A DNA stretch of 64,000 nt from Denitrobaculum tricleocarpae (GTDB lineage Bacteria > Pseudomonadota > Alphaproteobacteria > Kiloniellales > Kiloniellaceae). Location: positions 248,001-312,000 of the forward strand of contig NZ_ML660054.1 in NCBI RefSeq assembly GCF_007004665.1, in the 5' to 3' direction. Positions 12,665-49,832 of the stretch are shown here, in pieces; within the stretch, counting starts at the first letter, position 1, and every line of letters starts with the position of its first letter. The position numbers and the translations under genes are program-made. The notes under the pieces are model-generated. The model was not told where the DNA came from, did not search any database, and worked only from the letters and a program-made list of their open reading frames with translations.

Positions 12665-12924
12665 AGCAGCCCGGGCCGAATGAACTTTCATTAACACCGG
12701 GCTTTTGCAGCGACCTTGATCATGAGCGAGAGTCAGCACGCTAAAGCCATGCAAACAAATCGCTTTACCCCTTGAGTCGTCATGCCTGTGAATCCATCTT
12801 GTCTTTGAGACTAAGATGAGAACTCGTAGCGAGGTCCGTTAAAAATGCCAGCCCGCCGCCTCTATCCGCCGCGCCCCACTCGAGTACCACCAGCAGCCAG
12901 ACCGCATCTCGCGGAGACGGGTGT

Positions 12925-15338: not shown

Positions 15339-15779
15339 CTACCAGGCTTTATAGGGCAGAAACTTGCCGCTCATCTTCACCTCGATACGGTCGCCCTTGG
15401 GGTCGGGAATCTTATCGACGTACATCTCGAAGTCGATTGCGCTCATAATGCCGTCGCCACCCTTTTCCTGGATCAGTTCCTTGATGGTATCTCCGTAGAC
15501 GCCGACGATTTCGTAAAGCCGGTAGATACAGGGGTCCGTGGGGATGGTCTGATTGAACATCTTGGTGGGAAACTCCGCGAGCACGACGGCGGCTTCCTGC
15601 GGCAGGGCCAGGGTCTTGACCAGAAGGTCGGCCTTTTCGCGCGGCAGGGAGTTCATGCCCAGGCAGGCCGAGGTCGTAAAGACCGGCGACATGCCGATGC
15701 TCTCGGCAATGCCTTCCCAGGTCAGACCGGCGGTCTTCTTTTTCTCAATGATCATTTCCGCGACATCGACTTTATTCAT
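15339..15779 (-). CDS. cynS: Cyanate hydratase (cyanase)
   Basis: Bicarbonate-dependent breakdown of cyanate to ammonia and CO2. The 146 residues have an N-terminal helical domain and the C-terminal catalytic domain. Arg87, Glu90 and Ser113 align with the catalytic Arg96, Glu99 and Ser122 of the E. coli enzyme at a constant offset of nine. It has a good ribosome site (AAAGGA) and lies 46 bp after the ABC ATPase gene. It is the last gene of the leftward operon that starts at the sigma-54 promoter, which identifies the transporter as a cyanate rather than a nitrate system. Confidence 0.97.
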   Translation of the reverse strand: MNKVDVAEMIIEKKKTAGLTWEGIAESIGMSPVFTTSACLGMNSLPREKADLLVKTLALPQEAAVVLAEFPTKMFNQTIPTDPCIYRLYEIVGVYGDTIKELIQEKGGDGIMSAIDFEMYVDKIPDPKGDRIEVKMSGKFLPYKAW

Positions 15780-15825
15780 TGTCTGTCCTTTCTCGAGGAT
15801 TCCTGTGATTAGAGTGTTGAGTTGG

Positions 15826-16785
15826 TCACTGCACCAGCGACATGCGTTCGGGTTCCACGAGGGGTGCAGGCCGGTCTTCCCCCGGTCGCTCCCCGAGTCC
15901 CTCCCCGGACCCTTCCCCTTCAGCCGAATGTGCCGGTCGGACTGTCGCAGGCCGCCGGGGCTTCATGGGTCCGTCATCGTCGGGGCGTTCCTCAGCCAAA
16001 GCCTTGGAGCGCAAAGCCAGGAACTCGACCAGATGATTGCGGATCTTGTAGTAGCCCGGGTCGTGAATGATCTCCGCCCGGTTCCGCGGCCGGGGAATAT
16101 CGATCACCACACTCTCGGCAACGCGGGCGTAGGGCCCGTTGGTCATCAGCAGAATGCGGTCGGCCAGCAGAATCGCTTCGTCCACATCATGGGTGATCAT
16201 GAAGACCGTCTGTTCGCTGCCCGACCAGATCCGGATCAGCTCGTCCTGAATGGTGCCCCGTGTCAGGGCGTCGAGAGCCCCGAAGGGTTCATCGAGCAAC
16301 AGCAGCTTCGGCTGAATGGCGAAAGCGCGGGCGATCGAGACCCGCTGTCGCATGCCGCCGGAGAGCTGCGAGGGCTTGCGGTGCTCCGCCCCGCCGGACA
16401 GTCCCACCATCTCCAGATACTTGTAGGAGTGCTCAAGGATCTGCTCCTTGCTCCAGTCCGGATGGCGGGCACGCACGCCGAAGGTCACGTTCTTAAGCGC
16501 CGATCGCCAGGGCAGCAGGGAATAGTTCTGAAAGACCACGCCCCGGTCGAGGCTCGGCCCCACGACCTCCTTGCCATCCATAGTAACCGCGCCCGAGGTC
16601 GCTGTATCCAGTCCGGCCAGGACGTTCATGATGGTGGACTTGCCGCAGCCCGAATGCCCGATGATGCAGACGAACTCGCCCTTATTGATGTCGAAGCTGA
16701 CATCCTCGAACACGGTCAGATCTTCACCGCCGGGGCTGGGGTAGCGCTTGGTGAGTGCATCGATTTCTAAAAACGGATTCTTCAT
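15826..16785 (-). CDS. cynD: Cyanate/nitrate-type ABC transporter ATP-binding protein
   Basis: 319 residues from the start at 16785; upstream in-frame codons run into the permease gene and lack family support. Walker A GHSGCGKST (43-51), the LSGGMRQR signature and Walker B LLLLDEPFGALD are intact. It belongs to the NrtD/SsuB/TauB group. The last about 50 residues form a low-complexity tail rich in Pro, Glu and Gly that is not part of the fold. It follows the permease by 7 bp and precedes cynS, so it powers cyanate uptake. Confidence 0.92.
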   Translation of the reverse strand: MKNPFLEIDALTKRYPSPGGEDLTVFEDVSFDINKGEFVCIIGHSGCGKSTIMNVLAGLDTATSGAVTMDGKEVVGPSLDRGVVFQNYSLLPWRSALKNVTFGVRARHPDWSKEQILEHSYKYLEMVGLSGGAEHRKPSQLSGGMRQRVSIARAFAIQPKLLLLDEPFGALDALTRGTIQDELIRIWSGSEQTVFMITHDVDEAILLADRILLMTNGPYARVAESVVIDIPRPRNRAEIIHDPGYYKIRNHLVEFLALRSKALAEERPDDDGPMKPRRPATVRPAHSAEGEGSGEGLGERPGEDRPAPLVEPERMSLVQ

Positions 16786-37822: not shown

Positions 37823-38569
37823 CTAAAGCAACAGCGCGCCGTCCCACAACAGCTTCGTTCCCGCAAGCGCCAGGAACAGGTATGCGATCCTGGTGAAGAG
37901 CATCTGACTTATCAGGTGATGCAGACGAAAACCAAGCAGAACACCCAGAACCAGAAACGGGGTCAGAAGGAGGCTCGCCGTCAGCGTCTCCTGGGAATAC
38001 TGCGCAAGCGCCATGTAGGAAACTGTCTTGATCAGGTTAAGCGTGAAGAAAAAAACGCTGTTAGTGCCGACGAACAGAGATTTCTCCATTCCCCGGCTGA
38101 GCAAGTAACCCTTCACGGGCGGACCGCCTGCGTGCGCGATAAAACTCGCAAAGCCCGAGAGAGCACCCAAGGAGAAGACGACGACCCGACTTGAATCCCT
38201 GGCTTGCCGACCGATCGTCTGCGCGCAGGTGAATTGGAGAACGAACAGAAGCGCCATTCCTCCAATGGCCAACTTCAGCAACGCAGGGTCCATCCATTGG
38301 AAGGTGAACGCGCCGACCACAATGCCGCAGAGAGCGCCGGGCATCAGCGACTTAACATAGATCCAGGACCAGGAATGCCGGTAGTTCCAGATGTTCGCAC
38401 AGTCCATCACCAGAAGGATCGGCATCATCACCGTGACCGCCGCTTGCGGCGTTTGGAACAGCGACATCAAAGGGACCGCGAGTACGCCGAGCCCGCCCGC
38501 GAAACCGCTTTTCGAAACGCCGGTCATCAGGACTGCAAAGGCGGCCACCAGATAAAACTCAACGGACAA
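37823..38569 (-). CDS. TauE/SafE-family anion exporter
   Basis: 248 residues with about eight helices, in two halves each beginning with the family's hydrophobic glycine-rich motif (VSKSGFAGGLGVLAVPLM near 19-36). Members export sulfite, sulfoacetate or related organic anions. It is divergent from a LysR regulator with a perfect 10-bp dyad between them, so expression is probably effector-controlled. The neighbouring genes do not reveal the substrate. Confidence 0.88.
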   Translation of the reverse strand: MSVEFYLVAAFAVLMTGVSKSGFAGGLGVLAVPLMSLFQTPQAAVTVMMPILLVMDCANIWNYRHSWSWIYVKSLMPGALCGIVVGAFTFQWMDPALLKLAIGGMALLFVLQFTCAQTIGRQARDSSRVVVFSLGALSGFASFIAHAGGPPVKGYLLSRGMEKSLFVGTNSVFFFTLNLIKTVSYMALAQYSQETLTASLLLTPFLVLGVLLGFRLHHLISQMLFTRIAYLFLALAGTKLLWDGALLL

Positions 38570-39547: not shown

Positions 39548-40231
39548 TTATTGCAGCGCCTCATAATCCCCGACCAGGAAACGATGCTTAGACTCATCTT
39601 CTTCAATGTCCGGAAACCGGCCGATGGGGTTGAGAAAGTAGTTGTCGACATGGTCGTCGTTCACCGTCGAGACCTCGCCTACCAGCACGTCTTTCCCCTC
39701 GCCCCAGAAAGCGTGGTAGACACGCGGCAGCAGCGTCACGCTCTCGCCGGGTTTCAGGCGCAGAATATCACCCGCCGAGAAGCGTCGTTCCACACCGTCG
39801 GTGAAGACGGTCACTTTCCGCTCCCGGTCCAACTCGCCTTCGTCATTGGAATGGTAGAGCTTGATGGCGAGATCACCGCCACCGCGGTTGATGATGTCCT
39901 CCGCCTTGGACTCGTGATAGTGCATCGGCGCGAGCTGATCCTTTTTCGAGATCATGATCTTTTCGGCGTAGAGCATGCCTTTCCCCGACGCCAGATCCTC
40001 CTGGCGTCCGTTGCGGACGGTAAAGAGGAAGAGACCCGTCTTGCCATAATCCCCAAGACCGTAATCGGTAATGTCCCAACCCAGACCGGCGCGGAAGATC
40101 TCGCTGCAGGTCTCCTTGCGGCTGGTCCAATCCTCCTCGCGCCAATGGGCGAAGGGCGGCAGAACAAAGCCGAAGGATTCGATGAAGGCCTGTCCTTCGC
40201 GGAGGATCTCGTTGATTTCCGAACGTTTCAT
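39548..40231 (-). CDS. D-lyxose/D-mannose-type ketol-isomerase (cupin)
   Basis: 227 residues of the D-lyxose isomerase cupin family. Metal-binding histidines appear in APMHYHESKAEDIINRGGG (about 100-118) and VYHAFWGE (about 171-178), with a glutamate between, giving the usual divalent-metal site. The enzyme interconverts an aldose such as D-lyxose or D-mannose with its ketose. It is the last gene of the sugar operon, 11 bp after the Dabb gene; the LacI-type operators upstream of the operon support sugar induction. Confidence 0.88.
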   Translation of the reverse strand: MKRSEINEILREGQAFIESFGFVLPPFAHWREEDWTSRKETCSEIFRAGLGWDITDYGLGDYGKTGLFLFTVRNGRQEDLASGKGMLYAEKIMISKKDQLAPMHYHESKAEDIINRGGGDLAIKLYHSNDEGELDRERKVTVFTDGVERRFSAGDILRLKPGESVTLLPRVYHAFWGEGKDVLVGEVSTVNDDHVDNYFLNPIGRFPDIEEDESKHRFLVGDYEALQ

Positions 40232-40242
40232 AGTCCCGTTTC

Positions 40243-40557
40243 CTAAACCGCAACTTCCATATCGAACACCAGAATTCCGTCTTTGCCACCCTCGGCTGCC
40301 GCGACGAGCCTTGCGCCGATCGCGAGATGCTCGTCATCTACCAGATAGGCATTCAGCGCCGCAGCATCCGAAAAGGTGATGATAAAACCCTCGCTGTGGC
40401 CCTTATCCATGCATTCCGGGCTGACATTGTCGCCGTAGTCGATCCCGAGAAATCCGGGGTGATGATCCTGCAATCCGGCAAGCCCCTCGTAGATCCCGCG
40501 TTTGAGATCATCGCTTGTGCCGGGTTGATATCGGATGAAGACGCAATGCCTGATCAT
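40243..40557 (-). CDS. Dabb (stress-responsive alpha-beta barrel) family protein
   Basis: 104 residues with the dimeric ferredoxin-like Dabb fold, starting MIRHCVFIRYQP and including the FSDAAALNAYLVDDEH helix. In catabolic operons such small proteins may act as isomerases or lactonase-like helpers, but no active site can be assigned. Its start overlaps the end of the Gfo/Idh/MocA gene by 4 bp. Confidence 0.85.
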   Translation of the reverse strand: MIRHCVFIRYQPGTSDDLKRGIYEGLAGLQDHHPGFLGIDYGDNVSPECMDKGHSEGFIITFSDAAALNAYLVDDEHLAIGARLVAAAEGGKDGILVFDMEVAV

Positions 40558-41591
40558 GAGAACTCGATCCTCCGTCCCTCTTCGCTGGAGCGTTTTGCCG
40601 CCTCGATCATGCGGATCGTCTCCCTTGCTTCCTCGGCCAATACAGGCGGCCGACCGCCCCGCTCGATCGCTTCGCCCAAAAGGCGGTAATACTCATAGTG
40701 CGCACCGGGAACACTGGGCTCTCGCCGGGCGAAGAGTTTTCCCTTTTCCAGAACCGTGACTTCGGCCCAACGGTCCTGCGGCTCCACGCCGTAGCCGGGA
40801 TCTTCCGGAGTCATGCCGCCGCGAAGTTGCTCCTCCTGAATATCCATGTGCTTTTTCATGTAGGAACCCTGAGTGCCGTGGACCGCGTATCGTGTAGAGA
40901 AATCCGCGGAGAGGACGCTGGCCATCAGATCGATCCGCTGCCGTCCCTTGGCCATACGGATATGGAAACCGTCCACTACCTTCCCGCCGGGCCGCTGCGA
41001 TGTGATATCCGCGCTCAGCCAATCCGGCGTGCCGAAGAGGACCAGCGCTTGATCGATCAGATGCGAGCCCAGGTCATAGTGCAGGCCCGTGGCCTTGCCG
41101 GGCTGGTCCTGCCAGATGTCACTGACTTCAGGACGGAAGAACTCGAAATGCGCCCGGTAGGAATGAACGTCCCCTAAAGCACCCTCACCCATAAGTTTTC
41201 GCATTGTCAGAAAATCGGAATCCCAGCGCCGGTTCTGGAAGCAGGACACAATGCGGTTGGCCTTCTTCGCCGCCGCAATAACGTTATCGGCTTCCGCGAC
41301 CGAGGGCGTAAAGGGCTTGTCGGATACCACATGCTTACCCGCCGCCAGCGCTTTGAGCATGAGCGGAACATGCAGATCGCTGGGCGCAGCCACCACGATC
41401 AGATCTACGTTTTCGTCGGCGCAAAGCTCCTTTGGTGTGGCATAGATCCGCGCATCCGGATGATCCTTTTTGACGTCATCGGGCCGGGAGGACGCCACCG
41501 CCGCAAGCTCCAGTCCCGCCTTGGGAAAGAGCGGCGCATGGAAAACCCTGCCCGCCAGCCCATACCCGATCAATCCGACCCGTACCGTCAT
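40554..41591 (-). CDS. Gfo/Idh/MocA-family oxidoreductase
   Basis: 345-residue NAD(P)-dependent sugar dehydrogenase family protein. The Rossmann motif GLIGYGLAGRVFHAPL (6-21) and the EKP-equivalent segment SDKPFTP (about 94-100) are visible; the C-terminal alpha/beta domain provides the sugar site. It probably oxidises the imported sugar or its lactone or ketose derivative. It is in operon with the sugar ABC transporter, Dabb protein and isomerase. Confidence 0.92.
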   Translation of the reverse strand: MTVRVGLIGYGLAGRVFHAPLFPKAGLELAAVASSRPDDVKKDHPDARIYATPKELCADENVDLIVVAAPSDLHVPLMLKALAAGKHVVSDKPFTPSVAEADNVIAAAKKANRIVSCFQNRRWDSDFLTMRKLMGEGALGDVHSYRAHFEFFRPEVSDIWQDQPGKATGLHYDLGSHLIDQALVLFGTPDWLSADITSQRPGGKVVDGFHIRMAKGRQRIDLMASVLSADFSTRYAVHGTQGSYMKKHMDIQEEQLRGGMTPEDPGYGVEPQDRWAEVTVLEKGKLFARREPSVPGAHYEYYRLLGEAIERGGRPPVLAEEARETIRMIEAAKRSSEEGRRIEFS

Positions 41592-41620: not shown

Positions 41621-42733
41621 CTATGCAATCCGCAGCTCGGTCGCGGGATCGAAGAAGTGAATCTTGCCCATATTGAAGGCGAAGGGCACATCGGCCCCGA
41701 CCGAGAGTCCGGTGGCGTTGCGCATGCGCCCGGTGACTTCCTTGCCGCCAAGCTGAGTGACGACGAAGGTATCCGCACCGGTCGGTTCCACCACTTCTAC
41801 ACTGCAGTGCGCCTGGGCGATGTGCTCGGCCTTGGGGTCGGCACCATCGGGGTCCGTGATGTCCTCAGGGCGGATGCCCAGAACCACCGACTTTCCGCTG
41901 TAGCTGTGCAGTGAGGATGGCGGCTGCGGCACCGGTAGCGACAAGGAACGTTCCCGCTGCGGGATTTCCACGCAGAGCGTATCCCCGCCGTTCTCTATTC
42001 TGGCTTCGATCAGGTTCATGGTCGGGGACCCCATGAAGTCGGCGACGAACATATTCGCGGGCTTGGAATAGACCTCGTCCGGCGAGCCGACTTGCTGCAG
42101 GATGCCGTCCTTCAGAACCGCGATCTGGGTCGCCAGGGTCATGGCCTCGATCTGATCATGGGTCACATAGACAATGGTCGTGCCCAGCTTCTGATGCAGC
42201 CGCTTGATCTCTGTGCGCATGTCCACGCGCAGCTTGGCGTCCAGGTTTGAGAGCGGCTCATCGAAAAGAAAGAGTTTCGGGTCCCGGACCAGGGCGCGTC
42301 CCATGGCCACACGTTGACGTTGCCCACCGGAAAGCTGCCCGGGGCGCCGCTTCAACAGATGCTCGATCTGCAGCATTCCGGCAACGCCCTGGATGGCCTC
42401 CTCCCGCTCCGCCTTGGAGACGCCGCGCATTTCCAGACCGAAGGCGATGTTCTCGGCAACGGACATGGAGGGATAGAGCGCGTAGGACTGGAAGACCATA
42501 GCGATGTCCCGCTTCGAGGGATGCAGATCGTTGACCACAGTCCCATCGATCGAGATTTCGCCGGAGGTGATCCCCTCCAGGCCCGCGATCGTGTTCAGCA
42601 AGGTCGACTTGCCGCAGCCGGATGGCCCGACCAGGACCAGAAAGCCCCCTTCCTCGATGGCGATATCGACACCCTTGAGGACTTCCACATTGCCGTACTG
42701 TTTATGGAGACGATTGATTTCGAGAAACGCCAT
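41621..42733 (-). CDS. ugpC: Sugar ABC transporter ATP-binding protein (UgpC/MsmK type)
   Basis: 370 residues: ABC domain (1-235) with Walker A GPSGCGKST (about 36-44), LSGGQRQR signature and Walker B LFLFDEPLSNLD, then a C-terminal TOBE/MalK-like regulatory domain. UgpC-type ATPases often serve several sugar importers. It follows the MalG-type permease by 6 bp, so it energises the importer encoded here. Confidence 0.93.
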   Translation of the reverse strand: MAFLEINRLHKQYGNVEVLKGVDIAIEEGGFLVLVGPSGCGKSTLLNTIAGLEGITSGEISIDGTVVNDLHPSKRDIAMVFQSYALYPSMSVAENIAFGLEMRGVSKAEREEAIQGVAGMLQIEHLLKRRPGQLSGGQRQRVAMGRALVRDPKLFLFDEPLSNLDAKLRVDMRTEIKRLHQKLGTTIVYVTHDQIEAMTLATQIAVLKDGILQQVGSPDEVYSKPANMFVADFMGSPTMNLIEARIENGGDTLCVEIPQRERSLSLPVPQPPSSLHSYSGKSVVLGIRPEDITDPDGADPKAEHIAQAHCSVEVVEPTGADTFVVTQLGGKEVTGRMRNATGLSVGADVPFAFNMGKIHFFDPATELRIA

Positions 42734-42739
42734 AGCCGA

Positions 42740-43621
42740 TCAGCCCTTCACCGCGCCGGCCATCAGGCCGCGCACGAAATAACGTCCGGAGACGATGTAG
42801 ACGATAAGTGTGGGCAGCGCCGCCAGAATCGCGCCCGCGAAATGCACATTGTATTCCTTCACCCCGGTTGAGGAACTGACCAGGTTGTTCAGCGCCACGG
42901 TCATGGGCTGACTGTCGAAGTCGGCAAAGGACGCCCCGAAGAGGAAGTCGTTCCAGACGTTGGTGAACTGCCAGATCACCGTCACCACGATGATCGGTCC
43001 GGAGCTGGGCAGCAGAATGCGCTGGAAGATCCTAAAGAAACCGGCGCCGTCGATGGTCGCAGCGCGGATCAGCTCGGTCGGAAAGGCATCGTAGTAGTTC
43101 CGGAAGAAGAGAGTCGTGAAGCCCAGCCCGTAAACCACATGCACCAGGATCAGGCCGTAAGTCGTGCCGGCGAGATCCAAAAGACCCAGGATACGCGCCA
43201 TGGGGATCAGCACGATCTGAAAGGGGATGAAGCAGGAAAAGAGCATCAGGCCGAAGACGATCCTGTGACCCGGAAACTGCCACTTGGTCAGGACATATCC
43301 GTTGATCGCGCCCAGCAGGGTGGAAATGATCACCGCCGGAATGACCATCACCAGCGAGTTGATGAAGTAGGGTTTCAGCCCGGTCGGCTGCACACCGATC
43401 TGCGCCTCGCCCCAGGCCTGGATCCAGGGCTCAATCGTGAAGACCTCGGGAAAGGCCAGCATGTTGCCCTGGCGGATTTCCTCCAGGGGCTTCACCGAAT
43501 TGACCAGCATCACGAAGAGCGGTAGCAGATAGAAAACCGCGAAGACGATCAGGATCGCATAGATCAGAGCCCGGGCTATCGTGCCGGTCCGAAGCGCCGT
43601 ATCCCTGGACGCCGCGCTCAC
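42740..43621 (-). CDS. Carbohydrate ABC transporter permease (MalG type)
   Basis: 293-residue inner-membrane subunit with six helices and a BPD_transp_1 domain. The EAA loop (TELIRAATIDGAGFFRIFQRI, about 177-197) contacts the ATPase. Its start overlaps the MalF-type gene by 4 bp, so the two permeases are made in equal amounts. Confidence 0.93.
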   Translation of the reverse strand: MSAASRDTALRTGTIARALIYAILIVFAVFYLLPLFVMLVNSVKPLEEIRQGNMLAFPEVFTIEPWIQAWGEAQIGVQPTGLKPYFINSLVMVIPAVIISTLLGAINGYVLTKWQFPGHRIVFGLMLFSCFIPFQIVLIPMARILGLLDLAGTTYGLILVHVVYGLGFTTLFFRNYYDAFPTELIRAATIDGAGFFRIFQRILLPSSGPIIVVTVIWQFTNVWNDFLFGASFADFDSQPMTVALNNLVSSSTGVKEYNVHFAGAILAALPTLIVYIVSGRYFVRGLMAGAVKG

Positions 43622-44490
43622 GACTTCTTCTCCCGCAGTTCACTGTAGAGATAGGGAATGATAATGGAGGCGATCATGATCAGCATGATCACAGCCGAGG
43701 ACGCGCCGATGCCCATCTGATTGCGGGTAAAACTGTAGGAATACATGAAGGTCGCGGGCAGCTCAGTCGCCCGGCCCGGGCCGCCGTTGGTCAAAGCGAT
43801 GACCAGGTCATAGGCCTTGATTGCCAGATGCGCGAGCACCACGAAGGCCGAGAGGAAGGCCGGGCGCAGCATTGGAATCACGATCCGCCGGTAAAGCTGC
43901 CAGTTGGACGCACCATCGATTTGCGCGGCCTTGAGGATTTCGTTGTCGATCCCGCGCAGCCCGGCCAGGAACATTGCCATGACGAATCCCGAGGACTGCC
44001 AGACCGCGGCGATCACGACCGTGTAAATCGCCATCTCCCGGCTCTTGATCCAGTTGAAGGAAAAGCTCTCCCAGCCCCAGAGATGCATCACGTTCTCCAG
44101 GCCGATACCGGGGTCGAGGAACCACTTCCACGCCGTGCCCGTCACGATGAAGGAAAGCGCCATGGGATAGAGGTAGATCGGCCGCAGCACCCCCTCGCCC
44201 CGGATTTTCATATCCAGCAGGATCGCGAGGCCCAGCCCGATCACGGTGCAGATCACAATGTAGAGAATGCCGAAGATCGCCAAGTTCTTGAGCGCAATCG
44301 ACCAGTGCCGCAGGCTGAATAGTTTTTCGTAATTTTCGAACCCGACAAAACCCAGGGACGGCAGCATCCGCGAATCCGACACCGAGAGATAGCCGGTAAA
44401 GGCGATGAAGCCATAGACGAACAGCAGAATCAGCACGAAGCTCGGCGAGAGCACAAGCCGCGGCAGGTATGTCTGGAGCCTTTCAATCAT
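43618..44490 (-). CDS. Carbohydrate ABC transporter permease (MalF type)
   Basis: 290 residues with six helices; the EAA loop ILKAAQIDGASNWQLYRRI is near residues 186-204. It pairs with the MalG-type permease, which starts within its last codons. It is 155 bp downstream of the binding-protein gene, and the gap contains an 11-bp hairpin. Confidence 0.93.
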   Translation of the reverse strand: MIERLQTYLPRLVLSPSFVLILLFVYGFIAFTGYLSVSDSRMLPSLGFVGFENYEKLFSLRHWSIALKNLAIFGILYIVICTVIGLGLAILLDMKIRGEGVLRPIYLYPMALSFIVTGTAWKWFLDPGIGLENVMHLWGWESFSFNWIKSREMAIYTVVIAAVWQSSGFVMAMFLAGLRGIDNEILKAAQIDGASNWQLYRRIVIPMLRPAFLSAFVVLAHLAIKAYDLVIALTNGGPGRATELPATFMYSYSFTRNQMGIGASSAVIMLIMIASIIIPYLYSELREKKS

Positions 44491-44645: not shown

Positions 44646-45911
44646 TTACTGGGCGACCTCGACGGCGGACACCAATTCCTCGACGGCAGTCTCAGAGTCG
44701 AATTCGCCATTAAAGTGGGCGGTAACCACATCGTAGATGCCGTTCTTCACCGCCGCCGGTGCCGCATGGCCATGCGCCATCGATCCGTAGAGCTTGCCAG
44801 ATGCGTTGGCCTCCGAGAGTTCCTTCATGCCCTTTTTGCCGCAGGCATCGAAGGCTTCATCTGAGATATCCGTGCGCGCCGGAACCGATCCTTTGACCAC
44901 GTTGAACGCGGACTGGAACGACGGCGCCATGATCGAACTGGCCAGCTTCACCTGCGCGGCCTGTCCTTCCTCGCCCACCGAGAACATGGCGAACTGATCG
45001 GAGTTGAAGGTCACGGTGCCCTGAGTCCCGGGGAAGCGGAAACAGAGAAAATCCTCCTCAGGCTTTTGGCCTGCCTTCAGGAACTCACCCTTTGCCCAGT
45101 CGCCCATGAACTGAACGCCGGCCTTACCCTCGATCACCATGGCCGACGCCAGGTTCCAGTCCCGACCGGAAAAGTTATCGTCCACATAGGAGCGCAACGT
45201 CGCCATACGGTCGAAAGCCTCCTTCATCTGATCGGACCCGAGCGCGTCCGGATCCAGATCCACGAAGGCTTTCTTGTAGAATTCAGGTCCGCCGACAGAC
45301 ATCACGACCGCATCGAAGATGGTTGCGTCCTGCCAGGGCTGACCGCCATGGGCAACCGCGGTGTAACCGGCGCCTTTGATTTTATCCAGGGCGGCGACCA
45401 GCTCGTCCCAGCTCGCGGGCTGTGCAATGCCGAGCTCGTCGAAAATCTTCTTATTCGCCCAGACCCAGTTCGTCGAGTGCACGTTGACCGGGGCCGAAAT
45501 CCACTTGCCGTCATGCTTGGCAAAGCGCTGCAGCGCGGCCGGAACCACCTCGTCCCAGCCTTCTTTCGCTGCGACCCTGTTCAAGTCGGCGAGCGCGCCT
45601 TCCGCCGCCCAGTCCTGAATATCGAAGCCGAGCATCTGAACCGCAGTGGGTGCATTGCCCGCTGTGACCCGCGCGCGCAGAACCGTCATGGCCTGCTCGC
45701 CGCCGCCGCCTGCGACCGGCATATCCTTCCAGGCTACGCCATTGCTCTCGAGGTCCTCCTTCAGCACGTTCAGCGCGCTCGCCTCGCCGCCCGACGTCCA
45801 CCAGTGCAGGACCTCCACGGAGCTGTCAGCCGCCGACACCGCGCCCGCAGCACCGGTCATGATTGCGCAGACGGCAACCCCACCCGCAAGTTTCGAAAGA
45901 TAACGTTTCAT
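44646..45911 (-). CDS. Sugar ABC transporter substrate-binding protein
   Basis: 421-residue periplasmic receptor of the extracellular solute-binding protein family 1. The signal peptide spans about 1-27. The mature start [20 protein letters not shown] (about 33-52) is typical for oligosaccharide or monosaccharide receptors of the UgpB/AraN group. It is the first gene of the leftward sugar operon; a perfect 18-bp operator lies 60 bp upstream. The ligand is unknown; the isomerase suggests a pentose or hexose aldose. Confidence 0.93.
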
Positions 45912-45971: not shown

Positions 45972-45989
45972 ATCTGTAACGTTACAGAT
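45972..45989. promoter_or_regulatory. LacI-type operator 1 (sugar operon)
   Basis: Perfect 18-bp palindrome ATCTGTAACGTTACAGAT, 60 bp upstream of the binding-protein start. It has the central CG typical of LacI-family operators. It is the natural site for repression of the leftward operon by the divergently encoded LacI-type protein. Confidence 0.85.
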
Positions 45990-46252
45990 CGTTTCAGGCC
46001 ATAGTCTGTCTGATTCCAATTTGATCGTCAAATCTTTCACCCCTTTGCCGCATTGCAAGGCCGCGCGAGACATCTCGGGGGAATGACCGCAAAAGCCCAT
46101 CGAATCCGGCAGGTTCTGTATCGTTACGAATTTGATTTGATTTTGGCGTCATTTCCGCAGTTCGTCCAAAATTTTATGAATAGTTTCTGTAAATTAGATA
46201 CGAATGGCGTCATCTCTGGCGCCATCTCCCGCAACAGGACCGAATCAAAATC

Positions 46253-46264
46253 TGTAACGATACA
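46253..46264. promoter_or_regulatory. LacI-type operator 2 (imperfect)
   Basis: TGTAACGATACA, one base different from the perfect 12-bp core. It lies in the middle of the control region and could be an auxiliary site for looping. Confidence 0.6.
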
Positions 46265-46394
46265 AGTGATAGGCAAAGCCGTGACGCCAAATCCTTCGGA
46301 CACGACACGGTATCTGGAAAGACTTAAGTCCCTGCTTAGCGGGACATGATCGGCCTGCTCAATTCGGCAGGCCTTCCAGTAAGCCATCACCAGT

Positions 46395-46427
46395 CGAAAC
46401 GTTACAGTGAGCAGCTGTAACGTTTCA
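46395..46427. promoter_or_regulatory. LacI-type operators 3 and 4 forming a larger dyad
   Basis: Two imperfect cores, CGAAACGTTACA (46395-46406) and TGTAACGTTTCA (46416-46427), with centres 21 bp apart, two helical turns. Together they form a perfect inverted repeat with 12-bp arms (46396-46407 and 46415-46426) around TGAGCAG. This geometry would allow two dimers to bind on the same face of the DNA. Confidence 0.75.
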
Positions 46428-46610
46428 GCTTTTCAATCCGGGGAAGACTGCCGTTCAAGACCAGTACTCAACATCCGCATTGCCGTTGCGCTGCGAGGCG
46501 ATCCGTAACTTACAGAGCCACTCTTGAAGGCAGCACGACGTCGAACGCCCCGAAGAAGCCTTCAACTGCCCTGGACCACCAACTCGCCGGGACGGAATAG
46601 CGGCAAAATC

Positions 46611-46622
46611 CGTAACGTTACA
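46611..46622. promoter_or_regulatory. LacI-type operator 5
   Basis: CGTAACGTTACA, one end base off the perfect TGTAACGTTACA core, about 180 bp upstream of the LacI-DUF1479 start. Confidence 0.65.
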
Positions 46623-46751
46623 AAAGACTTAGGGCGGCGCACCACCTGTCGAAAGAACTCTGAAAACCATCTTATCTAATTGTTTTTAATTAATATTATA
46701 GCTTTGTTAAGGTGATTGTGAAAAAAGTGATTTTGACGAATGCTTAAAAAT

Positions 46752-46765
46752 CTGTAACGTTACAG
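46752..46765. promoter_or_regulatory. LacI-type operator 6 (autoregulatory)
   Basis: Perfect 14-bp palindrome CTGTAACGTTACAG, 39 bp before the GTG start of the LacI-DUF1479 gene and just after an AT-rich promoter-like stretch; probably an autoregulatory site. Confidence 0.8.
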
Positions 46766-46804: not shown

Positions 46805-49300
46805 GTGACCGACAAACCAACTGATGTTCCGCTGCCCCCGTCAGCTTCTCACGCGAGTTTACGAAACCGCGGCAAACGGCCGACTTTAAAGACAATCGCG
46901 ACAATTACGGGCCTCGGCGTCACCACTGTTTCCCGGGCCCTGAAGGACGGGCCTGAGATTGCCGAAGAGACGAAACGCAAGGTCCGCCAGGTGGCCAGCG
47001 AGGTTGGTTACTACCCGGACCGCGCGGGTGTGCGGCTGCGGACCGGCAAGACCAATGTCATCAGCCTGGTCCTGAACCCGCATGACGAGGTGGTCGGCTA
47101 TGGCTCTTCGGTCATCCTCGGCCTGTCGCAGGTTCTGAGCTCGACCCCCTATCACCTTGTGGTAACGCCACATTTTCTCAATGCCGATCCGATGGACTCC
47201 GTCCGCTACATCACCGAAAGCGGTTCCGCCGACGGCATTGTCTTCTCGCGCACCGAACCCATGGACCCTCGGGTACGCTATCTGATGGAGATCGATTTTC
47301 CATTCGTCAGCCACGGACGGACCGAGCTTGCGACGGAGCATCCCTATCATGACTACGACAATGCCGAATTCAGCCGGCTCGCGGCCAGGCGCCTGATCGA
47401 AAAAGGCCGGAAGCGGCTGGTTCTGATTGCGCCGCCCACGGCTCACACTTATCACCAGCACATGACCCGCGGGTTTGCGGACACCGTGCGCGAGGCCGGC
47501 GTGGAGCAAGTTTTCCTATCGCAGGTCGATCTCGACAGCACCGCCGAGCAAATCAGAACCTCCATCCGGGAATTGGTGAAGCAAGGCCAACGTCCGGACG
47601 GCTTCGTCTGCGGCGGCGAGATCTCGGCAATAGCCCTGATGGCAGGTCTTGCGGATGCCGGGCTCAAAATCGGCGAAGACGTCGACATCGTTGCAAAGCA
47701 AACTTCGAGTATTTTCAATCACTATCAGCCGCAAATCGATACGATTTACGAGGACCTGACCGCAACCGGACAGGAACTGGCCAACATCATTCTCCGGCGC
47801 TTGGATGACAGTCCAGTCGCAAGCCTCCAGACCATCGGCACACCCGAACTCCGGTTCCGCACGTCTTCGTCGGCAGATGCAGCCTCGCCGGCTCGTCATG
47901 AGAAAACCCAAAAATCCGCCGGCGCACAAAAGGGAGAAGCAAAAATGGACGGGACGGCCCAGCCTTCTGAACGCATGCCTTCTGAAAATAAACCTTCTAA
48001 AACCAAGTCTTCTGATACCCAACCCGCAGGCGCGCGCGCCTTAAGCGCTGGGAAGACTGACGAGGCGGTCAAAGCGCAGATCACTTCGGCCAAAAAGATG
48101 CTTCGCCGCAACAAGGCAAAGCTCAAGGCCTCCTTTGCCCACCTCAGCGACGCCATGAAGGCAGAAATCGACGAAATCAAAACGACGGTGGCCGCTGGGC
48201 GGCCCTGTATTCCTGAACTTGATTTTGCGACCATCCGTGACGGCATGGTTTCGGACCAGACCCGCGCCGATATTCGCAAGCGCGGTGCGGTTGTGATACG
48301 GGGCGTTTTCGACCGTACACAAGCCGAAGACTGGAACGAGGAACTCGGCGCCTATATCGACGATAACGGCTACTATGAGAAGGAAGTGGAAAAACGCGGG
48401 CTGGACAAATACTTCGACGAGCTCGCATCCGGCCGCCCGCAGATCTTCGGCCTCTACTGGTCCAAGCCGCAAATCATGATCCGTCAGGCAGAGACCATGG
48501 CGGCAACGAAACGCTTTCTCAACGGCTTATGGGACATCGCCGGTCCGAACGGCAAGGAATTCGATCCGGACAACGATTACACCTATGCGGACCGGATCCG
48601 GCGCCGCGAGCCGGGCGATAAAACACTTGGCCTGTCGCCGCATATGGATGCCGGCTCCTACGAGCGCTGGACCGATCCCGCATTCCAGACCATCTACGAA
48701 GCTGTCTTTGCCGGAGACTGGCAGGCCTACGATCCCTGGAATGCCGCGGAACGCACGCAGACCATCGAATACCCTTCACCAGCTGTCTGCTCCATGTTCC
48801 GGACATTCCAGGGGTGGACCGGCCTGACCACCCAGGGCCCGAACGACGGGACACTGCAGCTTGTGCCGAGCGCAAAGGCGATTGCCTATATGCTGCTGCG
48901 CGCCCTGCAGGACGACGTCGCCGAGGACGACCTCTGTGGCGCGCTGCCGGGGCGGGCGCTCAGCGCAACCGAGGAATGGCACCCACTTCTGCTCGAAGGC
49001 CTGATCTCCATCCCGACCGTCGAGCCCGGAGACACGGTCTGGTGGCACCCTGACGTCATTCACGCAGTCGAAGACGAGCATAACGGCGCGGGCTATTCGA
49101 ATGTGGTTTACGTCGGCGCGTCACCGCGCTGCGCAAAGAATACGGTCTACGCCAGAAAGCAGGCACGCGCCTTTATCGAAGGCCTCTCGGCCCCGGACTT
49201 TGCGCCGGAAAACTACGAGGTGAACTTCAAAGGGCGCGCAACAGCTTCAGATCTGACCGAGCTGGGCAGAGAACAGATGGCGCTCGATACCCTTGTCTGA
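46805..49300 (+). CDS. LacI-family regulator fused to a DUF1479 (2OG-oxygenase-like) domain
   Basis: 831 residues, more than twice a normal LacI protein. Order: LacI HTH (about 27-75, with LKTIATITGLGVTTVSRALK), periplasmic-binding-protein-like sensor (about 82-350), a low-complexity linker (about 351-425), then DUF1479 (about 426-831). The last part resembles E. coli YbiU and shows a HxD motif in SPHMDAGSYERW and a distal histidine in WWHPDVIHAVED, as in Fe(II)/2-oxoglutarate oxygenases. The GTG start has a GAGG site. The frame is open throughout. A Shine-Dalgarno and in-frame ATG at 47945 (residue 381) could also start a separate 451-residue DUF1479 protein. It is divergent from the sugar operon and flanked by matching operators. 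Confidence 0.88.
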   Translation: MTDKPTDVPLPPSASHASLRNRGKRPTLKTIATITGLGVTTVSRALKDGPEIAEETKRKVRQVASEVGYYPDRAGVRLRTGKTNVISLVLNPHDEVVGYGSSVILGLSQVLSSTPYHLVVTPHFLNADPMDSVRYITESGSADGIVFSRTEPMDPRVRYLMEIDFPFVSHGRTELATEHPYHDYDNAEFSRLAARRLIEKGRKRLVLIAPPTAHTYHQHMTRGFADTVREAGVEQVFLSQVDLDSTAEQIRTSIRELVKQGQRPDGFVCGGEISAIALMAGLADAGLKIGEDVDIVAKQTSSIFNHYQPQIDTIYEDLTATGQELANIILRRLDDSPVASLQTIGTPELRFRTSSSADAASPARHEKTQKSAGAQKGEAKMDGTAQPSERMPSENKPSKTKSSDTQPAGARALSAGKTDEAVKAQITSAKKMLRRNKAKLKASFAHLSDAMKAEIDEIKTTVAAGRPCIPELDFATIRDGMVSDQTRADIRKRGAVVIRGVFDRTQAEDWNEELGAYIDDNGYYEKEVEKRGLDKYFDELASGRPQIFGLYWSKPQIMIRQAETMAATKRFLNGLWDIAGPNGKEFDPDNDYTYADRIRRREPGDKTLGLSPHMDAGSYERWTDPAFQTIYEAVFAGDWQAYDPWNAAERTQTIEYPSPAVCSMFRTFQGWTGLTTQGPNDGTLQLVPSAKAIAYMLLRALQDDVAEDDLCGALPGRALSATEEWHPLLLEGLISIPTVEPGDTVWWHPDVIHAVEDEHNGAGYSNVVYVGASPRCAKNTVYARKQARAFIEGLSAPDFAPENYEVNFKGRATASDLTELGREQMALDTLV
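47931..47947 (+). promoter_or_regulatory. Internal ribosome site and ATG for a free DUF1479 protein
   Basis: AGGGAGAAG at 47931-47939 is placed 5 nt before an ATG at 47945 that is in frame with the fused gene (residue 381). It lies at the domain boundary, just after the sequence where LacI proteins normally end (PELRFRTSSS, near 345-355). This looks like the remnant, or still functional, start of an originally separate gene. Confidence 0.65.
47963..48022 (+). repeat. 15-bp tandem repeat coding a pentapeptide linker
   Basis: Four imperfect copies of a 15-bp unit starting CCTTCT, coding PSERM, PSENK, PSKTK and SSDTQ (residues 387-406). It lies in the linker between the LacI and DUF1479 parts and just downstream of the internal start. 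Polar, flexible and length-variable by slippage in principle. Confidence 0.8.
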
Positions 49301-49337: not shown

Positions 49338-49832
49338 TTAGCCGGCCATCTTGCTGTAGGCGCCGCGGAAATACAGCAAGGGCCGGGAACCGGCAGCCCC
49401 CATGGCGAGCCTGGTCACTTTACCCACCACAATGATGTGGTCGCCCGCGTCGTGCACGGCATCCAGCGCGCATTCCAGGTTCACCAGACAACCCGGCAGG
49501 ATCGGCGCGCCGCTCTCCCAGACATCGTAAGGGATGCCGTCCCACTTGTCGGGTTTGGGGCTGGCAAAGCGGACGGAGAGTGCCTCCTGAGGCTCTGCCA
49601 GAACATTAACAACGAAGTGCTCCGCATTCTGAAAACAGGGAAAACTGAAGGCCGCACGATCGATGCAGAAAGAGACCAGCGGCGGCTCGAGCGATACCGA
49701 GTTAAAGGAATTGACGGTTACACCGCGCGGCAAGCCCGCATCATCAAGGACTGAGACCACGGCGACGCCTGTGGCATAGCACCCGAGGGCTGTCCGGTAA
49801 TCCTGTGAATCGAACTTCATCGATTTTTTCAT
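49338..49832 (-). CDS. Flavin reductase family protein (FMN-binding split barrel)
   Basis: 164 residues, a start at 49832 or at the second methionine (49820). The flavin_Reduct domain spans nearly all of it: ALGCYATGVAVVSVLD (about 15-30), VNSFNSVSLEPPLVSFCID (about 41-59) and a terminal GAYSKMAG. It uses NAD(P)H to reduce FMN or FAD for a partner monooxygenase (HpaC type). It is convergent with the LacI-DUF1479 gene; no flavin monooxygenase is adjacent, so its partner is unknown. Confidence 0.9.
   Translation of the reverse strand: MKKSMKFDSQDYRTALGCYATGVAVVSVLDDAGLPRGVTVNSFNSVSLEPPLVSFCIDRAAFSFPCFQNAEHFVVNVLAEPQEALSVRFASPKPDKWDGIPYDVWESGAPILPGCLVNLECALDAVHDAGDHIIVVGKVTRLAMGAAGSRPLLYFRGAYSKMAG

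Follow-up and report, generated by a model that had tools for sequence, protein, structure and literature searches.

A LacI-type repressor fused to a putative Fe(II)/2-oxoglutarate-type oxygenase beside a divergent sugar transporter operon in Denitrobaculum

Why should a LacI-type repressor be joined, in one polypeptide, to a domain of the DUF1479 family that resembles an oxygenase? The question is raised by a gene at positions 46805..49300 of a 64,000-nucleotide stretch of DNA from Denitrobaculum tricleocarpae (contig NZ_ML660054.1), which was analysed as a whole and is referred to below as the window. We consider that its product probably works as a bifunctional enzyme-repressor in the manner of PutA (proline utilisation A), controlling its own gene and the genes of a divergent sugar ABC transporter and oxidising a compound of the sugar pathway when induced. 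The genome of the window is called G000 in what follows, and three other genomes of the same genus are called G001 to G003.

The gene is a single stop-free frame of 831 codons on the forward strand with a GTG start, and its product consists of an entire LacI-type repressor followed, after a variable linker, by an entire DUF1479 domain (Gig2-like in Pfam) that contains an HxD...H motif. The LacI-family helix-turn-helix occupies residues 27-72 (46883..47020, +; PF00356, E 1.7e-10, 40.9 bits with a cut-off of 27), and the remainder of the repressor, comprising the hinge and the effector-binding domain, extends to a conserved RFRT at residues 350-353 (47021..47863, +). The effector domain is of the periplasmic-binding-protein-like type (Peripla_BP_3, PF13377, residues 194-355, 76.2 bits with a cut-off of 26.5), and the closest solved sequence for residues 21-347 is a LacI-type transcription factor, PDB 7cdv (E 3.1e-105). 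Beyond the linker (47864..48088, +), the DUF1479/Gig2-like domain covers residues 422-827 (48068..49285, +; PF07350, E 1.7e-135), with the HxD at residues 613-615 and invariant histidines at 748 and 753; the profile, whose members are called DUF1479 in PDB titles, is matched at full length (positions 3-408 of 408, 452.3 bits with a cut-off of 27). The computed masses are 91.5 kDa for the whole fusion and 50.0 kDa for the part that begins at an internal ATG. The initial annotation had described a single 831-codon LacI-DUF1479 frame with products of about 91 and about 50 kDa, and its coordinates, masses and motif were correct. A putative catalytic part (DUF1479) and a DNA-binding part (LacI) are carried by the same chain, as in trigger enzymes.

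Judged from its sequence, the DUF1479 part is most likely an Fe(II)/2-oxoglutarate (2OG)-type oxygenase that acts on a compound of a sugar pathway. The HxD...H residues, earlier put forward as catalytic, are intact: H613-x-D615 and H748/H753 are present in G000 and in both fused relatives described below, and the columns of H613, D615, H748 and H753 are invariant across 42 aligned DUF1479 sequences. By analogy, the distal histidine (H748 or H753) is presumably an iron ligand. A model of residues 381-831 (m9dba45eddbbe), with a mean pLDDT (predicted local distance difference test) of 87.4, shows the double-stranded beta-helix fold of Fe(II)/2OG oxygenases. Its best match is 7twe_B (Z 57.8), whose title names a DUF1479-containing protein with a bound ligand ('Bound to 2'), followed by 4rgk, 2csg, 2dbi, 2dbn and GIG2 (Z 57-41) and, more distantly, by Fe(II)/2OG enzymes of the FtmOx1 type (Z 17-18). 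The closest solved sequences for residues 421-828 are Yersinia and enterobacterial YbiU-type DUF1479 proteins, for which neither a reaction nor a substrate was found in the literature searched. A genome search found one DUF1479 gene in G000 and no second copy, so that the fusion is the sole source of DUF1479 there.

We compared relatives for the same domain order, as the initial annotation had recommended. The frame is fused, with no stop between the parts, in G002 (93% identical, 823 residues) and in G003 (87% identical, 818 residues), and it is split in G001 and others; among 61 genomes searched in the order, nine carry the LacI and DUF1479 pair, fused in three and split in six. The ratio of nonsynonymous to synonymous substitution rates (dN/dS), calculated by the Nei-Gojobori method (NG86), is 0.01-0.05 in the helix-turn-helix, sensor and DUF1479 parts for all three genome pairs, and dS is about 0.4 when G000 is compared with G002 and 1.3-1.7 when either is compared with G003; by these values both domains are under strong purifying selection. 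Since the pair is split in most genomes of the order that have it, an artefact of assembly or sequencing, or a decaying pseudogene, had to be considered. Fusion in assemblies of three different species, the low dN/dS of both domains and the intact putative catalytic residues in all three leave this explanation with a negligible probability, and we set it aside.

The fusion appears to be rare, and in what was compared it is confined to a small group of marine bacteria. Among 80 DUF1479 loci (of 116 found), frames longer than 532 codons occur only in the G002 and G003 copies (L038 and L039), no further fusion was seen among 13 other DUF1479 genes from 398 genomes of the phylum, whose frames span 419-573 codons, and none of the 222 plasmid records that match the query does so over more than 80% of it. 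The fusion may nevertheless occur in genomes beyond those sampled. A search of published titles found none that describes a LacI-DUF1479 fusion, which at the level of titles is no proof of absence. Many Pelagibacteraceae (SAR11) loci (L073-L116) contain a DUF1479 gene whose identity to the domain of the fusion is about 51-55%, with no sugar transporter on the sequenced stretches compared.

How the two parts came together can be read from the split pairs, and the simplest history would be a single recent joining of operon neighbours. In G001, the LacI gene ends at a stop and the DUF1479 start, preceded by GGGAGG, lies 74 nucleotides past the first base of that stop. Separate adjacent genes in the same order are found in nine loci (G001, G008, G012, G016, G018, G020, the Granulosicoccus metagenome-assembled genomes L059 and L061, and Pokkaliibacter L068), with the two genes 10-75 nucleotides apart or nearly so. 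In trees built from 11 sequences each, the three fused copies form one clade, with support of 96/95 for the LacI part and 100/99 for the DUF1479 part, and the split G001 copy is their sister. Because a fused clade with a split sister stands among split pairs that are already adjacent, one joining event suffices. In G011, of the same family, a LacI gene and the transporter occur with no adjoining DUF1479 gene, and a 344-residue protein with no Pfam match at 1e-4 (L036 8237-9268, -) stands after the LacI gene in its place.

The DNA upstream of the fusion gene suggests what the repressor part might bind. The 893-bp stretch between the transporter ATG (45911) and the fusion GTG contains seven matches, with at most three mismatches, to a palindrome of 14 positions, CTGTAACGTTACAG; these seven are all the matches in the window, and 100 shuffles gave a mean of 0.75 and never seven. 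The first (45974..45987) has 0/14 mismatches and lies 63 bp before the transporter ATG. It is followed by sites at 46116..46129 (three mismatches), 46252..46265 (two), 46394..46407 (three), 46415..46428 (one, 21 bp from its predecessor) and 46610..46623 (two), and the seventh (46752..46765), again free of mismatches, lies about 50 bp before the fusion GTG. Operator-like palindromes with a central CG, as expected for LacI-family control, lie between the divergent genes in G000 to G003 and in the split Kiloniellaceae. G002 has seven palindromes in a matching layout together with two four-mismatch sites, and G003 has eight; the split Kiloniellaceae (G001, G008, G012, G016, G018 and G020) have two each, 137-142 bp apart, and the Granulosicoccus genomes have two at a closer spacing. 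The motif is absent from the intergenic region before the LacI gene of Pokkaliibacter (L068), where a different, perfect 24-bp palindrome, CAAAATGAAAACGTTTTCATTTTG, is found instead. Across the three fused genomes, three-way identity is 85% in the operator columns and 44% in the rest of the region, in an alignment that may have been anchored by the sites themselves.

Outside the locus, the exact 12-base TGTAACGTTACA occurs once each in G000, G002 and G003, in every case within a long, coding-looking open frame, and these sites were therefore not counted as operators. Within the reach of this search, the palindromes thus appear to serve the fusion gene and the divergent transporter gene as a local control region. 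A second cluster of CTGTAACGTTACAG-like sites, many at 24-bp steps, lies at positions 12795-12910, 15621-15831 and 16767 of L124, which map to about 239794-243766 of contig C5 of G000, with counterparts in G002 (L126) and G003 (L128). It adjoins a PPK2 gene (L124 16780-17643) and the gene of a CARDB-domain protein, and may be either another site of action of the fusion or the target of a different protein.

The spacing of the sites raises the question of a more elaborate architecture. Neighbouring palindromes are 142, 136, 142, 21, 195 and 142 bp apart in G000, 142, 136, 142, 21, 184 and 142 bp apart in G002, and 143, 135, 130, 21, 139, 142 and 143 bp apart in G003; only the steps of 142, 136, 142, 21 and 142 bp are common to G000 and G002. 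The G003 array is evenly stepped (R between 0.77 and 0.96 for seven trial periods of 135-145 bp), and global periodicity over the same range is not significant in G000 and G002 (p 0.08-0.42), where one long step of 195 or 184 bp breaks it. An origin of the array by tandem duplication of a 142-bp module found no support, as the DNA between sites is no more alike than shuffles and a repeat search found the palindromes only. One could imagine a control device in which the LacI part brings an enzyme dependent on O2 and 2OG to seven or eight phased operators about 140 bp apart, where the enzyme domains would bridge repressors along the DNA or use up the sugar signal on the spot, and a single promoter would respond to sugar, oxygen, iron and 2OG status alike. 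We think this improbable. The LacI sensor alone could do the signal sensing, and the linker, which is 75 codons long in G000, 67 in G002 and 62 in G003, is fast-changing; a linker so long and variable argues against tight coupling of enzyme turnover to DNA binding. In the full-length model, pLDDT is below 50 over residues 300-416, and the LacI part is of low confidence, having few LacI alignment rows, so that no domain geometry was drawn from it. The length, variability and low model confidence of the linker suggest that it tethers the two parts loosely and does not couple them finely. The earlier suggestion that the enzyme might make or destroy the inducer at the operator, or be stored on the DNA, found support in none of our results.

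The genes on the other side of the palindromes provide the metabolic setting, which had been guessed from the repressor to concern a sugar and is indeed a divergent sugar ABC transporter operon. Its solute-binding protein (44646..45911, -; PF01547) is closest among PDB sequences to 4r2b, with further matches to 5dvf and the glucose-binding protein 2b3b; sugar-binding components are among its nearest solved relatives. There follow, on the same strand, permease A (43618..44490) and permease B (42740..43621), both recognised by profile matches, an ATPase of the UgpC type (41621..42733; NF008653 above its cut-off), a Gfo/Idh/MocA oxidoreductase (40554..41591; profile matches) and a protein of the D-lyxose/D-mannose isomerase family (39548..40231; PF07385, E 4.3e-100; NF051472 below its cut-off). 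In relatives, the same transporter genes adjoin the LacI-DUF1479 pair, and a gene-by-gene comparison of loci L041-L117, many of them short, showed the same transporter binding protein on the sequenced stretch in 9 of 77. A passage of one published account places E. coli ybiU beside sugar-phosphatase and glycyl-radical genes (PMC8464067). These sugar-gene neighbourhoods make a sugar, or a compound derived from one, the most likely substrate of the enzyme.

Two further sugar-related arrangements were seen. The L069 cluster includes a protein of the N-acylglucosamine 2-epimerase family, and on E. coli plasmid record CP088669.1 an annotated LacI-family regulator (L142 4230-5390, -) runs on the strand opposite to ybiU and overlaps its 3' end, with an MFS transporter gene and then a GH31 gene after it. 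A sulfoquinovose pathway, raised by a TauE-type exporter (37823-38569) and a flavin reductase (49338-49832) in the window, was dropped, there being nothing in the papers searched that ties DUF1479 to it.

By analogy with PutA, we suggest the following mode of action. When no sugar signal is present, the LacI part would bind the seven palindromes and repress both the fusion gene and the transporter operon; when the signal appears, the LacI part would release the DNA, and the DUF1479 part, encoded by the same mRNA, would oxidise the sugar or a derivative of the imported pathway with Fe(II), 2OG and O2. The fusion would have arisen once, from two adjacent genes of one operon, with the operator array expanding in the same lineage and the linker holding the two parts loosely together. 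Some free enzyme of about 50 kDa would probably be made in this strain as well, from a ribosome site inherited from the split gene.

Several observations weigh against so specific a role. Fused and split copies are about equally distant from outgroups; there is no sign that the rate changed after fusion, and nothing therefore points to a new function. The linker is free of in-frame stops in all three genomes, but this alone is weak evidence, since 6%, 13% and 23% of shuffled linkers also lack stops, as does one other frame of the G002 linker and one of the G003 linker. Its dN/dS is 0.27 in the sole computable pair, from a protein-based alignment, and the lengths of its gaps, taken as a test of frame selection, gave an outcome that varied with the parameters, the alignments being too divergent. 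Counted genome-wide with at most two mismatches, the palindromes are not clearly above a reversed-pattern control (18 vs 14 in G000, 14 vs 19 in G001), which leaves only the local cluster as significant. The fusion and the operator expansion, moreover, are one event each on one branch, and the link between them may be due to chance.

These points have to be set beside a rival that we take seriously, even though we would not call it probable, in which the stop of the LacI gene was simply lost, each part goes on working as before at the end of a tether, the fusion has no regulatory consequence and the operator expansion is unrelated. Such a neutral joining would fit the small gaps between the genes in the split relatives, the unchanged rate, and a linker that is long, variable (75, 67 and 62 residues) and modelled with low confidence. 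It fits less well with a fusion that three species have retained at a dS well above 1, although a single stop codon or frameshift in the linker would suffice to separate the parts as long as the internal start is there, and with an operator array that expanded in exactly the three fused genomes, even if that counts as one event. An enzyme-repressor to which the fusion may bring some benefit remains the reading that we prefer.

The internal start bears on what the locus makes. The ATG at 47945 is in frame, corresponds to residue 381 and is preceded by AAAAGGGAGAAGCAAAA, which together form a possible ribosome site and start (47927..47947, +) for a free oxygenase of 451 residues, homologous to the split start in G001. 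Its duplex with the 16S tail (-8.6 kcal/mol) ranks first of the 31 in-frame ATG, GTG and TTG codons scored and falls within the range of the starts of the split genes (-4.7 to -10.3 kcal/mol). The six-codon window ending at this ATG is better conserved than any other of the 79 that start in the linker (61% identical nucleotides, with a mean of 17%), in an alignment made from proteins, which tends to line up like stretches. The homologous codon, a further point against the proposed working, is weaker in the relatives: a GTG at -5.5 kcal/mol in G002 (rank 4 of 33) and an ATG at -4.1 kcal/mol in G003 (rank 9 of 35). The second start raised in the initial annotation is thus strengthened for G000 and weakened for the other two fused genomes. 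We regard the internal start as a retained remnant of the start of the split gene, likely to work in G000 and of uncertain function in the relatives, where it may be a decaying relic. A stronger claim would be that the locus makes two products of comparable importance, the internal ATG or GTG giving most of the active enzyme and the fusion being mainly a repressor with a minor enzyme tail. The energy of the G000 site and its place in the best-conserved window would agree with this claim; the weaker sites of G002 and G003 would not, and the conservation could equally reflect the peptide or incomplete decay. We therefore consider two such products doubtful, and retain the enzyme-repressor, with some free enzyme probable in this strain.

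If this proposal is true, the locus would hold an enzyme-repressor built from a complete LacI repressor and an Fe/2OG-type enzyme and seen shortly after it arose. The split ancestral state survives in the same genus, which would allow a clean test of the effects of fusing a repressor to an enzyme, and the expanded operator array is a second oddity that can be tested. The fixed genetic setting also offers a way to find out what DUF1479 proteins, E. coli YbiU among them, act on.

Few proteins act as enzyme-repressors, PutA, NadR and BirA being examples, and PutA has several operators in the put region. Like PutA, a trigger enzyme of E. coli and its relatives, the fusion is proposed to be an enzyme-repressor of its own gene and of a divergent transporter gene, acting from the region between them; passages of two published accounts describe PutA as repressor and enzyme in one protein that binds between putA and putP, the gene of the divergent transporter (PMC8249747, PMC5879082). 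PutA differs in that its DNA-binding domain is a ribbon-helix-helix and the sensing is done by its flavoenzyme, whereas here a LacI repressor, complete with an effector-binding domain, is joined to an enzyme part of Fe/2OG-type fold. No ribbon-helix-helix, proline dehydrogenase or P5C dehydrogenase domain was found in the fusion, in which Pfam finds LacI and Gig2-like domains only. In other words, the fusion is proposed to work like PutA but is not a PutA.

Each half also has a known counterpart. Over residues 21-347, the fusion shares its domain plan with the LacI-type repressor of PDB 7cdv, 7cdx and 7ce1, which we take to be SghR of Agrobacterium; unlike the fusion, that repressor is a chain of 370 residues that ends after the sensor domain and has no enzyme domain. 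Residues 421-828 match YbiU/DUF1479 proteins (4rgk, 7twe, 2csg, 2dbi) and Candida GIG2 (6akz) over their full length (model Z 57.8-41.0), but these proteins stand alone, at about 420-480 residues. The split pairs of Kiloniellaceae, Granulosicoccus and Pokkaliibacter are also alike, with the same gene order, the same divergent transporter and, in Kiloniellaceae, the same palindrome; they differ in having separate genes and two palindromes (none of this motif in Pokkaliibacter), whereas the fusion lineage has seven or eight. The principle of a repressor with enzyme activity is known; what appears to be new is the union of LacI and DUF1479 in one protein, which among the genomes compared is limited to three members of one genus.

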